From: Mesorhizobium sp. PAMC28654
Lineage (GTDB): Bacteria; Pseudomonadota; Alphaproteobacteria; Rhizobiales; Rhizobiaceae
NCBI RefSeq assembly: GCF_020616515.1
Contig: NZ_CP085135.1
Location: 5,999,001-6,063,000 of the forward strand
Length of the DNA: 64,000 nt
Direction: 5' to 3'
The position numbers and the translations under genes were made by a program. Positions 1 through 5,726 of this stretch are shown here, piece after piece; position 1 is the first letter of the stretch, and every line of letters begins with the position of its first letter. The notes under the pieces are model-generated. The model was not told the DNA's origin. It ran no database searches and saw only the letters and a program-made list of their open reading frames with translations.

Positions 1-120
1 AATGTAATGTAGCAATCACTTCATTGAGAGGCGACCCCGAGGTGATCGGGCGTTGCATTTTTGTCATGTCCTTGGGCGACCGGGAAAGCGTTTTCGCCGT
101 AGATCCAGAGCCCGTTGACG

Positions 121-417
121 CTATCTGTCGGAGGAGACGAACAACGAGGCGGCGATCTGGGCGCGCAGGCCGGCGGGGCGTTCCTTTGCCTTGAGCAGGC
201 CTTGTTCGCGGGCGGCGCGCTCGAAGGCGGACCATGCGACGGCCGGCCGGCATGCGCCGTTTTCAGCCGCGACCAGAAGCTGTGCCGCGGTCTTGTAGCT
301 CTTCGCTTCCTTGTTGCACCAATGGCCTGCAAGGGCCCTGCGCGCGTCGGGGATCGAGGTGACCACCATGGAGCGGGCGTCGATGAAGCGAATGGTCAAG
401 GCGGGCAGGGCGCGCAT
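121..417 (-). CDS. DUF982 domain protein
   Basis: A 98-residue protein with the DUF982 pattern seen in rhizobial small proteins: a short beta start (MRALPALTIRFID), a Trp-centred segment (RALAGHWCNKEAKSY) and a C-terminal AWSAFERAAREQGLL helix. The function of DUF982 is unknown. I chose the ATG at 417 because GAGG lies 8 nt upstream; an in-frame ATG at 462 would overlap the preceding gene and has weaker support. The stop is at 121-123. It follows a 38-residue membrane protein by 10 nt, so the two are probably co-transcribed. The family call rests on pattern recognition only. Confidence 0.7.
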   Translation of the reverse strand: MRALPALTIRFIDARSMVVTSIPDARRALAGHWCNKEAKSYKTAAQLLVAAENGACRPAVAWSAFERAAREQGLLKAKERPAGLRAQIAASLFVSSDR

Positions 418-427
418 GGCGACCGCC

Positions 428-544
428 TCACCAGCCGAGCCACTCGCGCGTGCGCCAGGCAAGGCCAGCGAAGGGCGTGACGAGAACGAGAAACACCAGC
501 ATCATCGTCAACGGGTGTCTGGTCATCGAGGGTCGCGGAGCCAT
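428..544 (-). CDS. small single-pass membrane protein
   Basis: A 38-residue ORF starting MAPRPSMTRH, followed by a hydrophobic stretch (LTMMLVFLVLVTPFAGLAW) long enough to span the membrane and a short basic/aromatic tail. AAAGGTG lies about 9 nt before the ATG, a good ribosome binding site. It sits 10 nt upstream of the DUF982 gene on the same strand, suggesting a two-gene operon. It matches no family I can name; small membrane peptides of this kind often act as regulators or membrane anchors, but nothing here shows that directly. Confidence 0.55.
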   Translation of the reverse strand: MAPRPSMTRHPLTMMLVFLVLVTPFAGLAWRTREWLGW

Positions 545-791
545 CGCTAGGTCACCTTTTGCTTCTGAGAATGTTGCTTCTGAGAACGCCGTTTTGCAAA
601 CCGCAGGTGTAACGTCACTTCGGCCAAGTGGTTGCATCGCCACGCTGGCGGAATTGGCCAGGTGGCGGCATTCATCCCGCGGGGCAGGGGGACGGTTCAG
701 GGCGTTGGTTCGAGGCGGCGCCGGGGCCGAGAAGCGATATGCCGTGCGATGCCTGCGGATCATTCACGCGAACCCGTTGGCGGAACCTGTT

Positions 792-816
792 GGAACCTTC
801 TGGCCATCGGGGCGTT
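792..816 (+). promoter_or_regulatory. EcfG-type general stress promoter
   Basis: GGAAC (792-796), 16 nt, then CGTT (813-816) matches the alphaproteobacterial EcfG consensus GGAAC-N16/17-CGTT for the general stress response. No protein gene follows. The predicted start near 822 leads directly into two hairpins and a terminator, so the promoter probably drives a small RNA. Confidence 0.65.
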
Positions 817-821
817 TTGAA

Positions 822-896
822 TACGGATCGCCCCCCTCGCGATCCCAAGCCCCAAGTACAGCCCCGCCGGTCTCCCCGTCCGGTGGGGCTTTATTG
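822..896 (+). ncRNA. candidate stress-induced small RNA with C-rich loops
   Basis: About 70 nt between an EcfG-type promoter and an intrinsic terminator. The first hairpin pairs GGATCGC (825-831) with GCGATCC (839-845) around the loop CCCCCTC. The second is the terminator stem (860-870 with 880-890) around the loop TCTCCCCGT. C-rich, CCUCC-like loops on two short hairpins recall alphaproteobacterial small RNAs with anti-Shine-Dalgarno loops. No ORF of useful length fits. The call is inferred from promoter, structure and terminator; no sequence family was recognised. Confidence 0.55.
860..896 (+). terminator. strong intrinsic terminator
   Basis: An 11-bp stem (AGCCCCGCCGG 860-870 with CCGGTGGGGCT 880-890, one G-U pair) and a 9-nt loop, followed by TTATTGTCTT. 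It ends the putative small RNA that begins near 822. Confidence 0.75.
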
Positions 897-966
897 TCTT
901 GGCGGCCCCCTTTGCGTCGGCAGCCTGGAACAATCAATTTTCCAGCAATCGCGCGTCGCGAAAGGG

Positions 967-1001
967 TTGACATGGAACAACCTGGGCGCGAGTTTCCGCC
1001 C
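967..1001 (+). promoter_or_regulatory. promoter and operator-like palindrome, peptide copy 1
   Basis: TTGACA (967-972), exactly 17 bp, then GAGTTT (990-995). The same layout precedes all four peptide genes. An inverted repeat, GGGCGcGAgTTTcCGCCC (984-1001), overlaps the -10 position and could bind a regulator. Confidence 0.6.
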
Positions 1002-1024
1002 ATGTCCATTTTGGGGAGTCGGGA

Positions 1025-1123
1025 ATGAAGAAAATCTACGAGAAGCCGGTTCTGGTTCGCCGCGAGAAACTGTCGAAGGTCACGGCGGCCTTGCCACTAA
1101 GCGGTAACAATGGTCCGGCCTGA
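1025..1123 (+). CDS. putative RiPP precursor peptide, copy 1
   Basis: A 32-residue peptide. Residues 1-21 begin MKKIYEKPVLVRREKL and end KVTA; the tail is ALPLSGNNGPA. Y5, P8, L10 and T20 sit at -17, -14, -12 and -2 relative to residue 22, which is the spacing of the lasso-peptide leader motif. The tail has no Asp or Glu, which a lasso ring needs at core position 7-9, so the modification type is open. GGGGAG lies 8 nt before the ATG. It has its own promoter upstream and is followed by a weak hairpin and a T-rich stretch near 1138-1163. It is first of four tandem paralogues. It was recognised from leader conservation, not from a maturase. Confidence 0.7.
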   Translation: MKKIYEKPVLVRREKLSKVTAALPLSGNNGPA

Positions 1124-1297
1124 CGATTTTCGTCGGTCCGCCAGGGTGGCCTTTTCTTTCTCGGTTCCCGGCGCCTGAATTGCCGCGGTGCATGGCCTGG
1201 CCGGCTTCCTCCGCCGGGTTTTCAGGCATTCGCGGGCTATCCTGCTCACCATTTCGGGAAACAATCGATCTTCAAGCATTCGCACGCCGCGACCGCA

Positions 1298-1332
1298 TTG
1301 ACATCGGGCAAGCCGGGCGCGAATTTTCGCCC
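1298..1332 (+). promoter_or_regulatory. promoter and operator-like palindrome, peptide copy 2
   Basis: TTGACA (1298-1303), 17 bp, GAATTT (1321-1326). The palindrome GGGCGcGAATTTtCGCCC (1315-1332) is the most symmetrical of the set and overlaps the -10 position. Confidence 0.6.
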
Positions 1333-1343
1333 GCATCACTCAT

Positions 1344-1377
1344 GGGGAATTGGGAATGAAGGGGAATTGGGAATGAA
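1344..1377 (+). repeat. 17-bp tandem duplication over RBS and start codon
   Basis: GGGGAATTGGGAATGAA occurs at 1344-1360 and again at 1361-1377. Each unit contains a Shine-Dalgarno-like GGGGA and an ATG. The first ATG (1356) opens a six-codon frame, MKGNWE, whose TGA (1374-1376) overlaps the ATG of peptide copy 2 (1373-1375) in an ATGA arrangement, so translation could be coupled. The other three copies have no duplication. Confidence 0.9.
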
Positions 1378-1465
1378 GAAAATCTACGAGAAGCCTGTGT
1401 TGGTTCGCCGCGAAAAACTGTCGAAGGTCACGGCTATCCCGCTGAATTCGTCGAAGTCGGTCTGA
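1373..1465 (+). CDS. putative RiPP precursor peptide, copy 2
   Basis: A 30-residue peptide with the same 21-residue leader as copy 1 and a different tail, IPLNSSKSV. Leader codons differ from the other copies only at a few synonymous positions, while the tail shares no clear alignment, as expected for a conserved leader with a diversifying core. The ATG is at 1373; an upstream duplicate of the ribosome binding site and start creates a short overlapping leader frame. A terminator hairpin follows at 1476-1508. The biochemical fate of the tail is unknown. Confidence 0.7.
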   Translation: MKKIYEKPVLVRREKLSKVTAIPLNSSKSV

Positions 1466-1475
1466 CGGTTTCATC

Positions 1476-1508
1476 AGCCCGCCGCCGACAGGGGAGGCGG
1501 GCTTTTCT
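1476..1508 (+). terminator. intrinsic terminator after peptide copy 2
   Basis: AGCCCGCC (1476-1483) pairs with GGCGGGCT (1496-1503), followed by TTTCTTTG. The same stem recurs after copy 3. Confidence 0.8.
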
Positions 1509-1660
1509 TTGCCGCGATTCCAGGTCCCGGTGCCTGGGTTCTCGCCGGAGCATTCGGCCCGGCGAGCTCTCTTCGCGGTGATTTCCCGCATTTTGGGGGC
1601 TTTCTTGCATCAGTGGGCGGAGAACAGGTCATTATCCGGATCTGATACGTCGGCTATGGA

Positions 1661-1689
1661 TTGACATGCAAACAAGCGGGGGTGAGCTT
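1661..1689 (+). promoter_or_regulatory. promoter, peptide copy 3
   Basis: TTGACA (1661-1666), 17 bp, GAGCTT (1684-1689). The GGGCG/CGCCC palindrome seen over the -10 of copies 1 and 2 is not preserved here, so copy 3 may be regulated differently. Confidence 0.55.
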
Positions 1690-1718
1690 GCAACCGTATC
1701 CATGGCGGGAGACGGGGC

Positions 1719-1808
1719 ATGAAGAAAATCTACGAGAAGCCGGTGCTTGTGCGCCGCGAAAAACTGTCGAAGGTCACGGCCGGTGGGTCACCATCGAGGC
1801 CGACCTGA
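1719..1808 (+). CDS. putative RiPP precursor peptide, copy 3
   Basis: A 29-residue peptide with the invariant leader (Y5, P8, L10, T20) and the tail GGSPSRPT. The tail starts with Gly at residue 22, the usual first core residue of lasso peptides, but it has no acidic residue. GGGAG lies about 8 nt before the ATG. It is followed within 8 nt by a terminator. Its promoter lacks the palindrome found at copies 1 and 2. Confidence 0.7.
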   Translation: MKKIYEKPVLVRREKLSKVTAGGSPSRPT

Positions 1809-1815
1809 CCTGACC

Positions 1816-1842
1816 AGCCCGCCGCCAGGGGTGGCGGGCTTC
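1816..1842 (+). terminator. intrinsic terminator after peptide copy 3
   Basis: AGCCCGCC (1816-1823) pairs with GGCGGGCT (1833-1840). The T-tract after it is short. Confidence 0.65.
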
Positions 1843-1912
1843 CTGCTTCGAGGTCTGAATTTTCACCGGCCGGAAACAGGACGTGGTCCAACGACTACAT
1901 GGGTGTCGCGGG

Positions 1913-1947
1913 TTGACATGAGGCCGGCTGGACGCGAGTTTCCGCCC
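1913..1947 (+). promoter_or_regulatory. promoter and weak palindrome, peptide copy 4
   Basis: TTGACA (1913-1918), 17 bp, GAGTTT (1936-1941). The palindrome is present but imperfect (GGACG ... CCGCCC). Confidence 0.6.
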
Positions 1948-1970
1948 GTATCCATTTTGGGGAGTCGGGG

Positions 1971-2060
1971 ATGAAGAAAATCTACGAGAAGCCGGTGCTT
2001 GTGCGCCGCGAAAAACTGTCAAGGGTCACGGCCGCTCCGTCTAATTCGAACGCGCCTTGA
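1971..2060 (+). CDS. putative RiPP precursor peptide, copy 4
   Basis: A 29-residue peptide with the leader identical except for Lys18 to Arg, and the tail APSNSNAP. The upstream region from TTGACA to the ATG is closest to that of copy 1, suggesting a recent duplication of a unit of roughly 100-150 bp including the promoter. A strong terminator follows at 2074. The four tails share only a bias to Ser, Asn, Pro, Ala and Gly. Confidence 0.7.
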   Translation: MKKIYEKPVLVRREKLSRVTAAPSNSNAP

Positions 2061-2072
2061 TCTTTTCGATCA

Positions 2073-2106
2073 GCCCGCCACCCGCAAGGTGGCGGGTTTT
2101 TCGTTT
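2073..2106 (+). terminator. strong intrinsic terminator after peptide copy 4
   Basis: CCCGCCACC (2074-2082) pairs perfectly with GGTGGCGGG (2088-2096), loop CGCAA, followed by TTTTTCGTTT. It ends the peptide array and faces the convergent sulfotransferase gene. Confidence 0.9.
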
Positions 2107-2168
2107 CTGGGACTGGATTGCCGCCGTGGCATCCGCGCCAGCACCATCGTGTCGGTCGTCGGCTCGCT

Positions 2169-2909
2169 CTATCCCAGCCACAACAGCAGGGCGGCGAGCA
2201 CCAGCAGAATGGCGGCGATCGACAAGCCCAGCATGATGTAGGAGCCGTTGACGATCTCGGCGATGATCTTCTTGATGGTCGCGCGGTCGTTGAGGTTGGG
2301 GAAGGGCTCGTCGGGCTCGGGCACGCCCAGGAAGCGGCACAGCGGGCTCCAGCCCTCGGTTACCTTGAACAGCAGCAGTTGGTCCGGCGGCACCGCCGCC
2401 TGCACCTCCTCGATATAGGTGCTGTAGCGCGCGATCGCCTTGTCGCGGTCGTCCATCACGCCGTTCAGCGTGCGGCCCCACACCAGCTTGCTCGACATGT
2501 CGCCGAATTTCCAGCCGAACGGCGTCAGCCATTCCAGGATCTTGAACTGCCAGACATTCTTGGTGAAATAGATCGTGTCGACGGTGCTGTCATACCAGGC
2601 TGCGGGGCCGCGCGGATGAAGAGTGAGCAGCACCTTGGCGTCGGGGTAGGCGGAGAGCAATTCCTTCCACACGCAGCAGCCGGGGTTGTCGACCGTCGCC
2701 GTGTAGTTGGCGAACACCTGGTTCCAGTCCTGCTGGCTGCCCGGCGGGCTGTTGGCCACCTTGCGCCAGAAATCGAGATGGCCCTTGTTGGCCTTGTTCA
2801 GGATCACTTCCTGCATGTGGTAGCAGGGAAAGCCGAGCCTGTTCAGCGCGGCGAAGGTCGACCACGTGCCCGTACGGCCGAAACCTGCCCCGATGACCTT
2901 GAGCGTCAT
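2169..2909 (-). CDS. sulfotransferase family protein
   Basis: A 246-residue protein of the sulfotransferase superfamily that transfers sulfate from PAPS. The N-terminus MTLKVIGAGFGRTGTWSTF carries the 5'-phosphosulfate-binding loop pattern followed by the AALNRLGFPCYHM helix common in this subgroup. Later features are DAKVLLTLHPRGPAAWYDS (the 3'-phosphate side) and a C-terminal hydrophobic segment (IMLGLSIAAILLVLAALLLWL) that probably anchors it in the membrane. The acceptor is unknown. It converges on the peptide array; a role in modifying those peptides is only a speculation from position. Confidence 0.8.
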   Translation of the reverse strand: MTLKVIGAGFGRTGTWSTFAALNRLGFPCYHMQEVILNKANKGHLDFWRKVANSPPGSQQDWNQVFANYTATVDNPGCCVWKELLSAYPDAKVLLTLHPRGPAAWYDSTVDTIYFTKNVWQFKILEWLTPFGWKFGDMSSKLVWGRTLNGVMDDRDKAIARYSTYIEEVQAAVPPDQLLLFKVTEGWSPLCRFLGVPEPDEPFPNLNDRATIKKIIAEIVNGSYIMLGLSIAAILLVLAALLLWLG

Positions 2910-3123
2910 TTTCCTGTTCCCCTCACTGGCCGTCCCCTTGGCCGCTGACCCCCTTTCACGGGTTATTTCAGTGCGGGCTCATGTTGCCCCCGCATGGATT
3001 GGTGCGCAACGAATTTCCTCGTCAGTGGGGAAAAACACTACAGACATGTCGTCAATCCGGCTTCATCTGGAATGGGTTGGCGTTGCCGCCATCGAGGATA
3101 GTTCCCAAGCCTGGCCGGCAAGA

Positions 3124-4344
3124 TCAATCGACGCAGCCCGGAGCGGCAGGCGCGCCGGCGAAACGGTCCCGCGTCCACGTCATCAAGTCGGCGGTCAGGG
3201 GCGAACCCTCCGCGACCAGCGACAGGTGGCCGACGCCCGGGTAGGACAGGAAATCGACGGGCTGGCCGGCGGCGCAACGCGATTTGACATAGGCCTGCTG
3301 CATCCGCGGAAGGACCGCGTCGTCGTCCTCCCCCTGAGCGATCAGCAGCGGCGCATTGATTGCGCCGCGCGGCGTGTTCTGCTCCAGCCGTGCGCCAAGC
3401 GGGCCGGATGCAGCGTCTTGCCAGAACGCGCCGCCGCGCGGCAGCAGCGCGGTTTCGGCCACAGAGAACAGCGTTTCCTTGCCACCCAGGCAGCGTCGGG
3501 CGATGTCGCCAGCAAGGGTTCTCGACCACCAGCCCATATAGTCGCCGGGCCGAACGTCCGGATAGGCGGCGGAATAGGCGCGCATGACATAGGCCGACAC
3601 GATCTTGCCGAGGATCGTGGACTGCCCATCCTCGACAAGCTCCCTGAGGTCGCTGGCCGGCGCGAAAGCGGCAATGCCGGCGAGCTTGAGTTCCGGCGCG
3701 TAATCGGACGCGCGCATGCCCGCCCACAATGCGCTGTGGCCGCCTTGCGAATGGCCCCAGACCACAAGCTTGTCGTCCAGCCTCGGCTCGCCCATGCGGC
3801 GCGCGGCGCGAACCGCGTCGAGCACGGCGCGCGCCGCCTCATCGCCGACCAGATAGGCATGGCCGCCCGAGCCGCCTTGAACCCCAAGGCCGATATAGTC
3901 CGTCGCGACATAGGCCCAGCCGGCATCGAGCAGCGGTTGCAGCGCCGGGACATTGTCGAACGGGTGCTCCATCACGGAGGGGGCACAACCCGCCGCGATG
4001 CCCGTCGTGCCATGCGCCCAGGCGATGATGGGCCGACTGTCCGTGGCCGGTTGCCGCGACACCATCACGATGGCGCTGGCCACGGCCGGCGTGTTGTCGG
4101 CCCGGGTCGTCGCATAGAGGATCCGCCAGGCCCGCGCGTTGTCGGGAACGTCGCGCGTGAACGGCTCGCTGGCGATCAGCGTTCCGGCCGGGGCGACCGG
4201 ATCGGAAACCCTGGAATAGAAGGCGTCGGGCATGGCTGGCTCGCAATACCACCATGCCAGCGCAATCAGGATGCAGGCGGCAAAGCCGATCCAGGCAAGG
4301 GCGCGGGCCAAACGTGCGAAGATCCTGCGCCGTCCTGTTGCCAT
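3124..4344 (-). CDS. secretory lipase-type alpha/beta hydrolase
   Basis: A 406-residue hydrolase with an N-terminal basic/hydrophobic anchor (LARALAWIGFAACILIALAW) and the alpha/beta-hydrolase core. The nucleophile elbow is GHSQGGHSA, the acid is probably in IAQGEDDDAV and the His in GVGHLSL, so the triad looks intact. It matches the secretory lipase family known from fungi and actinobacteria, acting on esters outside the cytoplasm. A paralogue of the same length and domain order lies at 25138-26358. It is divergent from the aminotransferase gene, with a 173-bp spacer. Confidence 0.8.
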   Translation of the reverse strand: MATGRRRIFARLARALAWIGFAACILIALAWWYCEPAMPDAFYSRVSDPVAPAGTLIASEPFTRDVPDNARAWRILYATTRADNTPAVASAIVMVSRQPATDSRPIIAWAHGTTGIAAGCAPSVMEHPFDNVPALQPLLDAGWAYVATDYIGLGVQGGSGGHAYLVGDEAARAVLDAVRAARRMGEPRLDDKLVVWGHSQGGHSALWAGMRASDYAPELKLAGIAAFAPASDLRELVEDGQSTILGKIVSAYVMRAYSAAYPDVRPGDYMGWWSRTLAGDIARRCLGGKETLFSVAETALLPRGGAFWQDAASGPLGARLEQNTPRGAINAPLLIAQGEDDDAVLPRMQQAYVKSRCAAGQPVDFLSYPGVGHLSLVAEGSPLTADLMTWTRDRFAGAPAAPGCVD

Positions 4345-4517
4345 GTGGTCCCCTCGGTTGCGGCGATTGTGGCATGAAAACAGGTTGTTTCCACTTTGAG
4401 TCCGCTGCGAATGTCTGTAACTGGCGCGATCACATAGACCTTCTGGCTATTCCAGAGGGCGCTGACCGGTGATAATAGGTCAGCGAGATTGACCTAATTA
4501 CCACCGACTGGGAGGTC

Positions 4518-5726
4518 GTGTTGACTTTGATGGACCTGTTGGCGTCGCGCTCGTCGCGCATGAAGGCGTCGGAAATCCGCGAACTGCTGAAGCTGCTCGA
4601 CCAGCCCGACATCATCTCCTTTGCCGGCGGCATTCCCGACCCTTCGCTGTTTCCGTCCGCCGCGATCGCCGATGCCTATGCCTCGGTGCTCGCCGGCGCG
4701 GAGGCGGGGGCCGCACTGCAATACCAGGTCAGCGAAGGCTATTTGCCGCTGCGGCGGTGGCTGGTCGGCTTGATGAGCGACCTTGGCGTGCCTTGCGACG
4801 AGGGCAACATCCTCATCACTTCCGGCTCGCAGCAGGGGCTGGATTATCTGGGCAAGCTTTTTCTCTCGCCTGGCGACACCGCGCTGGTGACATGGCCGAC
4901 CTATCTCGGCGCGCTGCAGGCCTTCAACGCCTATGAGCCGCGCTACGACCGGCTGACGCCGGATGGCGGCAACATGACGCCGTCGGCCTATCGCGCCGCG
5001 GCCGCCGCCAATGGCGGACGGCCGAAATTCGCCTATCTGGTGCCCGATTTCGCCAATCCGACCGGCGAGACCTTGAACCGGAAGCAGCGCGAGGCGGTGC
5101 TCGACCTCGCCGGCGAACTCGACATCGCCGTCATCGAGGACGCCGCCTATCGCGCGCTGCGCTATGACGGCGAGGCCGTGCCGCCGATCCTGGCGCTGGA
5201 CTGCGCTCGCTCCGGCGGCATCGACAAGGCGCGCACCATCTATTGCGGCTCGTTCTCAAAGATCCTGTCGCCGGGCATGCGGGTGGGCTGGATCTGCGCG
5301 CCGCGCGCCGTCATCGAAAAACTCGTCCTGATGAAGCAGGCGTCGGATCTGCACAGCCCGTCGATCAACCAGATGGTCATGCATCGCGCCGCCGAAGCCG
5401 TCTTCGACGGCCAGGTCGAGAAACTCATCGGCGCCTATGGCGCGCGCCGTGACGCGCTGCTCGCCGCGCTTGAGGCTCACATGCCCGAGGGCGTGACCTG
5501 GAGCCGTCCGGAGGGCGGCATGTTCGTCTGGGTGACGCTGCCGGAGGGCATCGACGCCACCGAGCTTCTGGCACGGTCGGTCAAGGAAGCGCGCGTCGCC
5601 TTCGTGCCCGGCAACGCCTTTTACGCCGACGGAACCGGGCGCAACACGCTGCGCCTGTCCTTCACGCTCGCCGACCATCGCGCGGTGAGCGAGGGGATTC
5701 CGAGACTTGCGGCGCTGCTGAAGTAG
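4518..5726 (+). CDS. PLP-dependent aminotransferase, class I/II
   Basis: A fold-type I aminotransferase of about 400 residues. The start ASRSSRMKASEIRELLKLL and FAGGIPDPSLFP resemble the 2-aminoadipate/kynurenine (LysN, MocR-lineage) group. ITSGSQQGLDYLGKLFL, VPDFANPTG and SFSKILSPGMRVGW (PLP Lys) are all present. The substrate is not determined. The start is uncertain: GTG 4518 is only 2 nt from GGGAGG, and TTG 4521, TTG 4527 and ATG 4530 are in frame with better spacing. It stands alone, so context does not help assign the pathway. Confidence 0.85.
   Translation: MLTLMDLLASRSSRMKASEIRELLKLLDQPDIISFAGGIPDPSLFPSAAIADAYASVLAGAEAGAALQYQVSEGYLPLRRWLVGLMSDLGVPCDEGNILITSGSQQGLDYLGKLFLSPGDTALVTWPTYLGALQAFNAYEPRYDRLTPDGGNMTPSAYRAAAAANGGRPKFAYLVPDFANPTGETLNRKQREAVLDLAGELDIAVIEDAAYRALRYDGEAVPPILALDCARSGGIDKARTIYCGSFSKILSPGMRVGWICAPRAVIEKLVLMKQASDLHSPSINQMVMHRAAEAVFDGQVEKLIGAYGARRDALLAALEAHMPEGVTWSRPEGGMFVWVTLPEGIDATELLARSVKEARVAFVPGNAFYADGTGRNTLRLSFTLADHRAVSEGIPRLAALLK

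Follow-up and report, generated by a model that had tools for sequence, protein, structure and literature searches.

Two described groups of phosphorylated peptides come closest to the system considered here, an array of four short, tandem peptide genes at positions 967 to 2,106 of a 64,000-nucleotide stretch of Mesorhizobium sp. PAMC28654 DNA (NZ_CP085135.1, 5,999,001 to 6,063,000; hereafter the window). The first description (PMC13381572) states that the class of linear polyphosphorylated peptides (LPP), a kind of ribosomally synthesized and post-translationally modified peptides (RiPPs), is restricted to Bacillota, that its kinase LppK phosphorylates a linear precursor, that its clusters combine a RiPP recognition element (RRE), a kinase and an NTP transferase without a cyclase, and that LppN had no effect in a heterologous host. 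The second group comprises the phosphorylated lasso peptides paeninodin, pseudomycoidin and Bsf (PMC10368454, PMC9266682); the kinase BsfK adds phosphate to Ser3 in the core of a lasso precursor, and B1 stimulates its activity (PMC10368454). Hexoses on phosphoserine have been linked to PsmN, a homologue of NTP transferases. In the prochlorosins of cyanobacteria a single enzyme set acts on numerous precursors, many of them encoded away from the enzyme, whose leader is conserved and whose cores are hypervariable; leader, enzymes and chemistry all differ from those of the present system.

We consider it likely, with a probability of roughly 0.8, that the array encodes RiPP precursors matured in trans by an unlinked operon, in which the leader would be bound by B1, the core phosphorylated and the precursor trimmed by B2. 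We observed a gene family, selection on its leader, retention of Ser or Thr in its cores, co-occurrence and linkage with the operon, and a kinase fold with its active-site motif. The initial annotation of the array had suggested that the precursors may be served in trans by an unlinked enzyme, and this is supported by an operon that lies 2.83 Mb from the array in record coordinates, co-occurs with the peptides and abuts them in other genera.

The system resembles LPP in its discrete RRE, HprK-like kinase, NTP transferase and lack of a cyclase, in its YxxP leader, variable C-terminal parts and conserved Ser near the core N-terminus, and in genomes that often carry lasso clusters too. In contrast, the LPP peptidase is SpI-like where B2 is found here (no SpI-like open reading frame (ORF) was present in the operon region L021, the genome not being searched for one), and LPP has an MsbA-like transporter, which that operon lacks. 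LPP precursors number one to three, are clustered and measure 35-200 aa, whereas 3-29 occur per kinase-positive congener here, mostly unlinked in this genome, and of the LPP leader motif YxxPxVLxHQxIxFETxxS only YxxP is held in common. Judged from sequence, the system probably works in an LPP-like manner, but since leader peptidase, transporter and full leader motif differ it is filed as a variant and not as a member. With the phosphorylated lasso peptides it has in common B1, B2 and an HprK-like kinase, in some cases an NTP transferase, a YxxPxL leader with Thr or Ile/Val at -2, and a Ser that is phosphorylated in those systems; those systems have a cyclase and lasso cores, whereas here there is no cyclase, the cores are short and 89/96 have no ring acid. 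No paper on this system was found in a limited literature search, which is a weak statement.

Conserved leaders and fast-changing cores

The chromosome (6,701,426 bases) carries 11 members of the family, four in the array and seven at five other sites (near 0.308, 0.862, 3.169, 4.632 and 5.967-5.971 Mb). Eleven columns are invariant among them (M1, K2, K3, Y5, P8, L10, L16, S17, V19, A21 and S26), the last of which is core position +5, where Ser stands in 11/11 members. Because this residue is invariant, the tails are not unrelated, as they had been described initially.

Ninety-six distinct peptides of the genus were collected by leader profile from the loci fetched (lowest score 35.8 bits, next candidate 13.5); they are part of the genus set, at least ~150 peptide places being present in relatives, and their core boundary was assigned by us after xTA/xVA. 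Every one of the 96 cores contained Ser, whereas 5,000 shuffles of the pooled residues gave 76.4 such cores on average and never more than 87. Ser was found at +5 in 66 cores, against a shuffled mean of 15.9 and maximum of 32, and 86 cores had one within +3 to +5, where shuffling gave a mean of 40.2 and at most 56; as the peptides are related, these figures express strength and not probability. Codons for the +5 Ser were TCN in 55 and AGC in 2 of the 57 counted. Several peptides of other genera, APVTVILIP and GPGGTEPDIRPQ among them, have Thr in place of Ser, and a Ser or Thr lay at most seven residues from the assigned boundary in 49/50 peptides. Cores of the genus measured 5-15 aa. The Y..P motif was present in all 96 leaders, which ended in TA (67), VA (21), AA (5) or otherwise (3), so that Thr occupied -2 in 67/96 and Val in 21/96.

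The ratio of nonsynonymous to synonymous change (pN/pS) was 0.36 over 83 genus leaders versus 0.93 over core codons 1-7 of 79 peptides, and 0.061 over six leaders, namely the four in the array and the two that occupy the orthologous site in G097, the nearest genome sampled. Purifying selection acts on the leaders, whereas the cores change fast except at the hydroxyl residue. With a leader pN/pS this low and 11 members in the genome, the array is beyond chance. Core turnover is incomplete, some loci in two genomes having kept their cores (VACPISHPCG in L102 and L109).

The closest known profile was NCBIfam lasso_leader_L3 (NF033521), always below its 19-bit cut-off: the member linked to the operon scored 18.9 bits and copy 3 of the array 13.3 bits, and copies 1, 2 and 4 gave no match. 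One close relative is named by NCBI 'putative RiPP precursor [Mesorhizobium shangrilense]'.

The kinase might instead activate the Ser as a leaving group, with dehydrated or thioether-bridged, lanthipeptide-like products. Exactly two Cys, spaced 4-6 residues and always placed around the Ser, occur in 19/96 cores, but the other 77 have no Cys and the operon genes match no lyase or lanthionine cyclase family, which makes this outcome very unlikely.

Cores with a Cys pair were found in L033, L093, L096, L102, L106, L107, L109, L110 and others, and the pair could form a disulfide or other ring. Longer cores in L026, L027, L032, L092 and L103 contain GPTG/GPAG-like repeats (e.g. SGAIGPTGPTG) reminiscent of collagen.

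An operon that accompanies the peptides

One family member, at 3,169,306-3,169,395 on the minus strand, adjoins an NTP_transf_5 gene on the plus strand, beyond which the minus strand encodes an HprK-like protein, a Transglut_core3 (B2) protein and a PqqD/RRE (B1) protein. The B2 passes the lasso B2 model NF033537 (65.7 bits versus a cut-off of 33), and the B1 scores over the Pfam cut-off for PqqD and resembles lasso B1 structures in its sequence (TfuB1, E 1.1e-5). The kinase is 92% identical to a Mesorhizobium shangrilense kinase, which, with the naming of the peptide relative, points to Mesorhizobium as the most likely genus of the genome, and has the features of the superfamily of HprK and phosphoenolpyruvate carboxykinase (PEPCK), that is the fold, the P-loop GxGK[ST] and Asp-Asp. 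A first structure model of it, from 13 close sequences, was poor (mean predicted local distance difference test, pLDDT, 57.8), and a second, with other genera added, was good. NCBIfam 'HprK-related kinase A' was rejected as its family (30 bits versus a cut-off of 200). Pfam identified no macrolactam cyclase among the L021 operon and flanking ORFs, and no signal peptidase was found among the scanned L021 ORFs. Because the operon is without a cyclase and 89/96 cores have no acid at positions 7-9, short linear phosphopeptides would be expected.

It had been proposed with the initial annotation that Mesorhizobium genomes be surveyed for the leader and for co-occurring cyclase, protease or RRE genes. 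Within 37 congeneric genomes, our own included, a second, lower-scoring PF13471 gene was present in 29, the same 29 that gave strong peptide matches; the remaining eight had no such gene, and one of them (G006) gave a single weak peptide match (E 0.014). When 140 congeners with a minimum completeness of 95 were searched (peptides at E up to 1e-3, operon kinase at E up to 1e-60), peptides were found in 97 and the kinase in 93, with both in 93, neither in 43, peptides alone in 4 and the kinase alone in none (Fisher's p ~8e-32, shared ancestry ignored). Kinase-positive congeners carried from 3 to 29 peptides, the highest number of matches among the 140 being that of G082. B1, B2, HprK, NTP_transf_5 and a neighbouring Acs-like gene were present in 20/20 fetched congeners and Dak1 in 19/20, and a B2-type leader peptidase was found in all 21 Mesorhizobium operons examined. 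Dak1 was also found in 10/12 operon-negative congeners tried, 0.3-1.5 kb from Acs in 10/10, and the Dak1-Acs interval in those 10 held no match to the four operon proteins. Given this and the co-occurrence, the operon is gained or lost as a unit together with the peptides. A peptide lay within the operon or at its edge in 7/21 scanned Mesorhizobium loci (L021, L062, L066, L071, L072, L073 and L080).

From the family, 297 genomes were drawn, of which 19 had peptides, 14 of these belonging to nine other genera. The kinase was present in 13 of these 14 versus 0/19 peptide-negative genomes tested. Eighteen regions were fetched from 13 of the 14 genomes, and in eight of them, from eight genomes, peptides and operon were adjacent, as many as 10 peptides being present (L118). 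A lasso-type leader peptidase was present in 8/8 of these linked operons, and no cyclase adjoined any of them with one lasso cyclase as query. Region L127, despite an earlier peptide match, yielded neither peptide nor operon when scanned, and no match of at least 150 bits to the transporter of the lasso cluster described below was found in L118-L135. A class-wide kinase search of 385 genomes identified, among the best five candidates per genome, our own and one other (E 7e-21). At L129:9938-11588 (G429) a peptide gene lies just before a weak (80 bits) match to the lasso-cyclase query, possibly a member beside a cyclase-like gene. Four of the eight linked operons include an AMP-binding (adenylate-forming) enzyme of ~475 aa, with 52-74% identity between the four proteins; the Mesorhizobium operon regions that were fetched showed only weak matches to it, at the Acs-like neighbour. 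Its positions are:

L118:10758-12164, AMP-binding enzyme
L120:12025-13491, AMP-binding enzyme
L122:12859-14286, AMP-binding enzyme
L126:5145-6572, AMP-binding enzyme

A complete and separate lasso cluster lies ~26 kb from the operon (L085:8682-14447, about G000:C1:3196.7-3202.4 kb). It encodes a 50-aa precursor (core GGGGNTAID...), B1, B2, a cyclase, an HprK-like protein and an ATP-binding cassette (ABC) transporter, and an NTP_transf_5 gene is found at L085 7036-8091 on the opposite strand; the cyclase (786 bits versus a cut-off of 525) is the genome's only strong Asn_synthase match. Since operon and cluster are only 17% identical in B2 and 20% in kinase, a recent duplication between them is unlikely. 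With this cluster at hand and a lasso-like leader that comes within a fraction of a bit of the cut-off in one member, the canonical cluster could act in trans and mature the peptides as lasso precursors. We regard this as highly improbable and have rejected it on core length, missing ring acid and phyletic pattern: the cores measure 5-15 aa; Asp or Glu stands at core positions 7-9, where a lasso ring acid is placed, in only 7 of the 96; a lasso-type PF13471 gene occurs in G016, G020 and G035, which have no peptides, and peptide presence tracks the cyclase-less operon; and the peptides adjoin that operon in eight genomes of other genera.

The absence of an exporter from the operon and the single conserved promoter box of each gene would also fit uncleaved, whole small proteins, such as regulators or tagged partners of the kinase, with the leader as a docking or targeting tag. 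This was judged unlikely, as a lasso-type leader peptidase accompanies the operon throughout (21/21 in Mesorhizobium and 8/8 in linked operons elsewhere), pN/pS is far higher in cores than in leaders, and the cores of near relatives differ at one and the same site.

Several observations weigh against maturation of the precursors by the unlinked operon. The position of the Ser is variable, the first Ser in the 96 cores ranging from +1 to +6. Kinase-less congeners with peptide matches do exist (two matches in G076, one each in G077, G145 and G155), as does one genome of another genus, G312, with a single weak match and no kinase. Some peptide loci of other genera are far from the operon, 9/18 regions having peptides without it. 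Kinase, B1 and leader all score under the curated NCBIfam cut-offs, the kinase under the Pfam cut-off too, and Foldseek places PEPCKs, of the same superfamily, above HprKs for the kinase model. Asp is expected as part of the B2 catalytic triad; it was not conserved here, Cys and His alone being so. No exporter was found in the operon among the scanned L021 ORFs.

Predicted maturation and its implications

Each enzymatic step of maturation is predicted by analogy with the characterised relatives, and the exact cleavage site, export and function are predictions too. The leader would present YxxPxL as the motif for RRE binding and would end in a cleavage site of the lasso type, with Ala at -1 and in most cases Thr or Val at -2. 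It is followed by a core of 5-15 aa that may vary freely apart from one Ser, replaced by Thr in some other genera. B1, the discrete RRE encoded at 3.17 Mb, would bind this leader and present the precursor, the HprK-fold kinase would phosphorylate the conserved Ser or Thr, and B2 would cut the leader off. NTP_transf_5 may elaborate the phosphate, possibly with a sugar or nucleotide, and the peptides would perhaps be exported by the lasso cluster's ABC transporter or by another. The product set should be a natural combinatorial library of short linear phosphopeptides.

The analysis ties orphan peptides, one of them known to NCBI only as 'putative RiPP precursor', to a specific enzyme set and predicts the modified residue. 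If the reading is true, cyclase-less phosphopeptide RiPPs would exist outside Bacillota with another leader peptidase, in a form of combinatorial biosynthesis where a single operon would handle as many as dozens of fast-changing, partly dispersed substrates. The odds seem about even that this is a distinct RiPP class in Mesorhizobium-related alphaproteobacteria, a cyclase-less, lasso-derived machine that turns out a genome-wide, fast-evolving library of short linear peptides, each bearing a sugar or nucleotide linked through phosphate to one conserved Ser or Thr. Precursor genes would then multiply and move independently of the enzymes, each with the common promoter box and up to 29 per genome, and strain-specific peptide mixtures could serve as signals or in inter-strain conflict.

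The array in the window and its expression signals

The array consists of four tandem plus-strand ORFs encoding peptides of 32, 30, 29 and 29 aa with a common 21-aa leader, MKKIYEKPVLVRREKLSKVTA. The near-invariant N-terminus noted initially was confirmed, the sole difference being K18R in copy 4. Copy 2 is part of a longer mechanical ORF and has its own ATG at 1373. The features are as follows:

967..972, +, TTGACA (-35-like box) of copy 1, 58 nt 5' of the ATG; box conserved across the genus
1025..1123, +, precursor gene 1; leader 1025-1087, core ALPLSGNNGPA
1298..1303, +, TTGACA of copy 2, 75 nt 5' of the ATG, with a short start-region duplication in between
1373..1465, +, precursor gene 2; leader 1373-1435, core IPLNSSKSV
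1476..1503, +, GC-rich hairpin with a T-rich stretch after it, terminator-like
1661..1666, +, TTGACA of copy 3, 58 nt 5' of the ATG
1719..1808, +, precursor gene 3; leader 1719-1781, core GGSPSRPT
1816..1840, +, GC-rich hairpin with weak T tract, terminator-like
1913..1918, +, TTGACA of copy 4, 58 nt 5' of the ATG
1971..2060, +, precursor gene 4; leader 1971-2033 (K18R), core APSNSNAP
2072..2098, +, hairpin with an 11-pair stem and a T run after it, intrinsic-terminator-like

TTGAC was found at -100 to -30 in 75/96 genus members versus 6.6 expected (maximum 12 in 50 simulations). In the 73 genes aligned on it, the box lay 54-64 nt 5' of the start in 68, and a weak T-rich element followed ~17-18 nt after it. 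A separate promoter for each gene, as first proposed, is well supported by these boxes in the array and genus-wide, but a scan of the window with the E. coli-type sigma-70 consensus matched no promoter. As to the terminators described initially for most genes, GC-rich hairpins follow copies 2, 3 and 4 (z -2.6, -2.0 and -5.7 against shuffles), and 3' of copy 1 no hairpin was better than shuffles (z -0.2). An Rfam scan of window positions 1-5000 gave no match at the gathering score. That no maturase lies within 10 kb, as had also been stated, was checked in part, by Pfam on three right-hand and two left-hand neighbours.

In G097, whose flanking sequences match those of the array at 88 to 93% identity, two genes occupy the site instead of four. 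Their cores are APLPSGNPT and GTPPSNTSASPP, and the first of the two peptides is identical to P0001 of M. shangrilense.

Sulfotransferase genes of two different Pfam families adjoin two peptide loci, at window 2169-2909 (minus strand) and L019:10173-11069. The one beside the array was rejected as a tailoring enzyme and taken to be a bystander, being present in 76/140 congeners including the peptide-less G016, G020 and G035. Before copy 2, at window 1349-1378, the ribosome-site and start region is directly duplicated over a short length (GGGGAATTGGGAATGAAG), and the first ATG that results soon runs into a stop.
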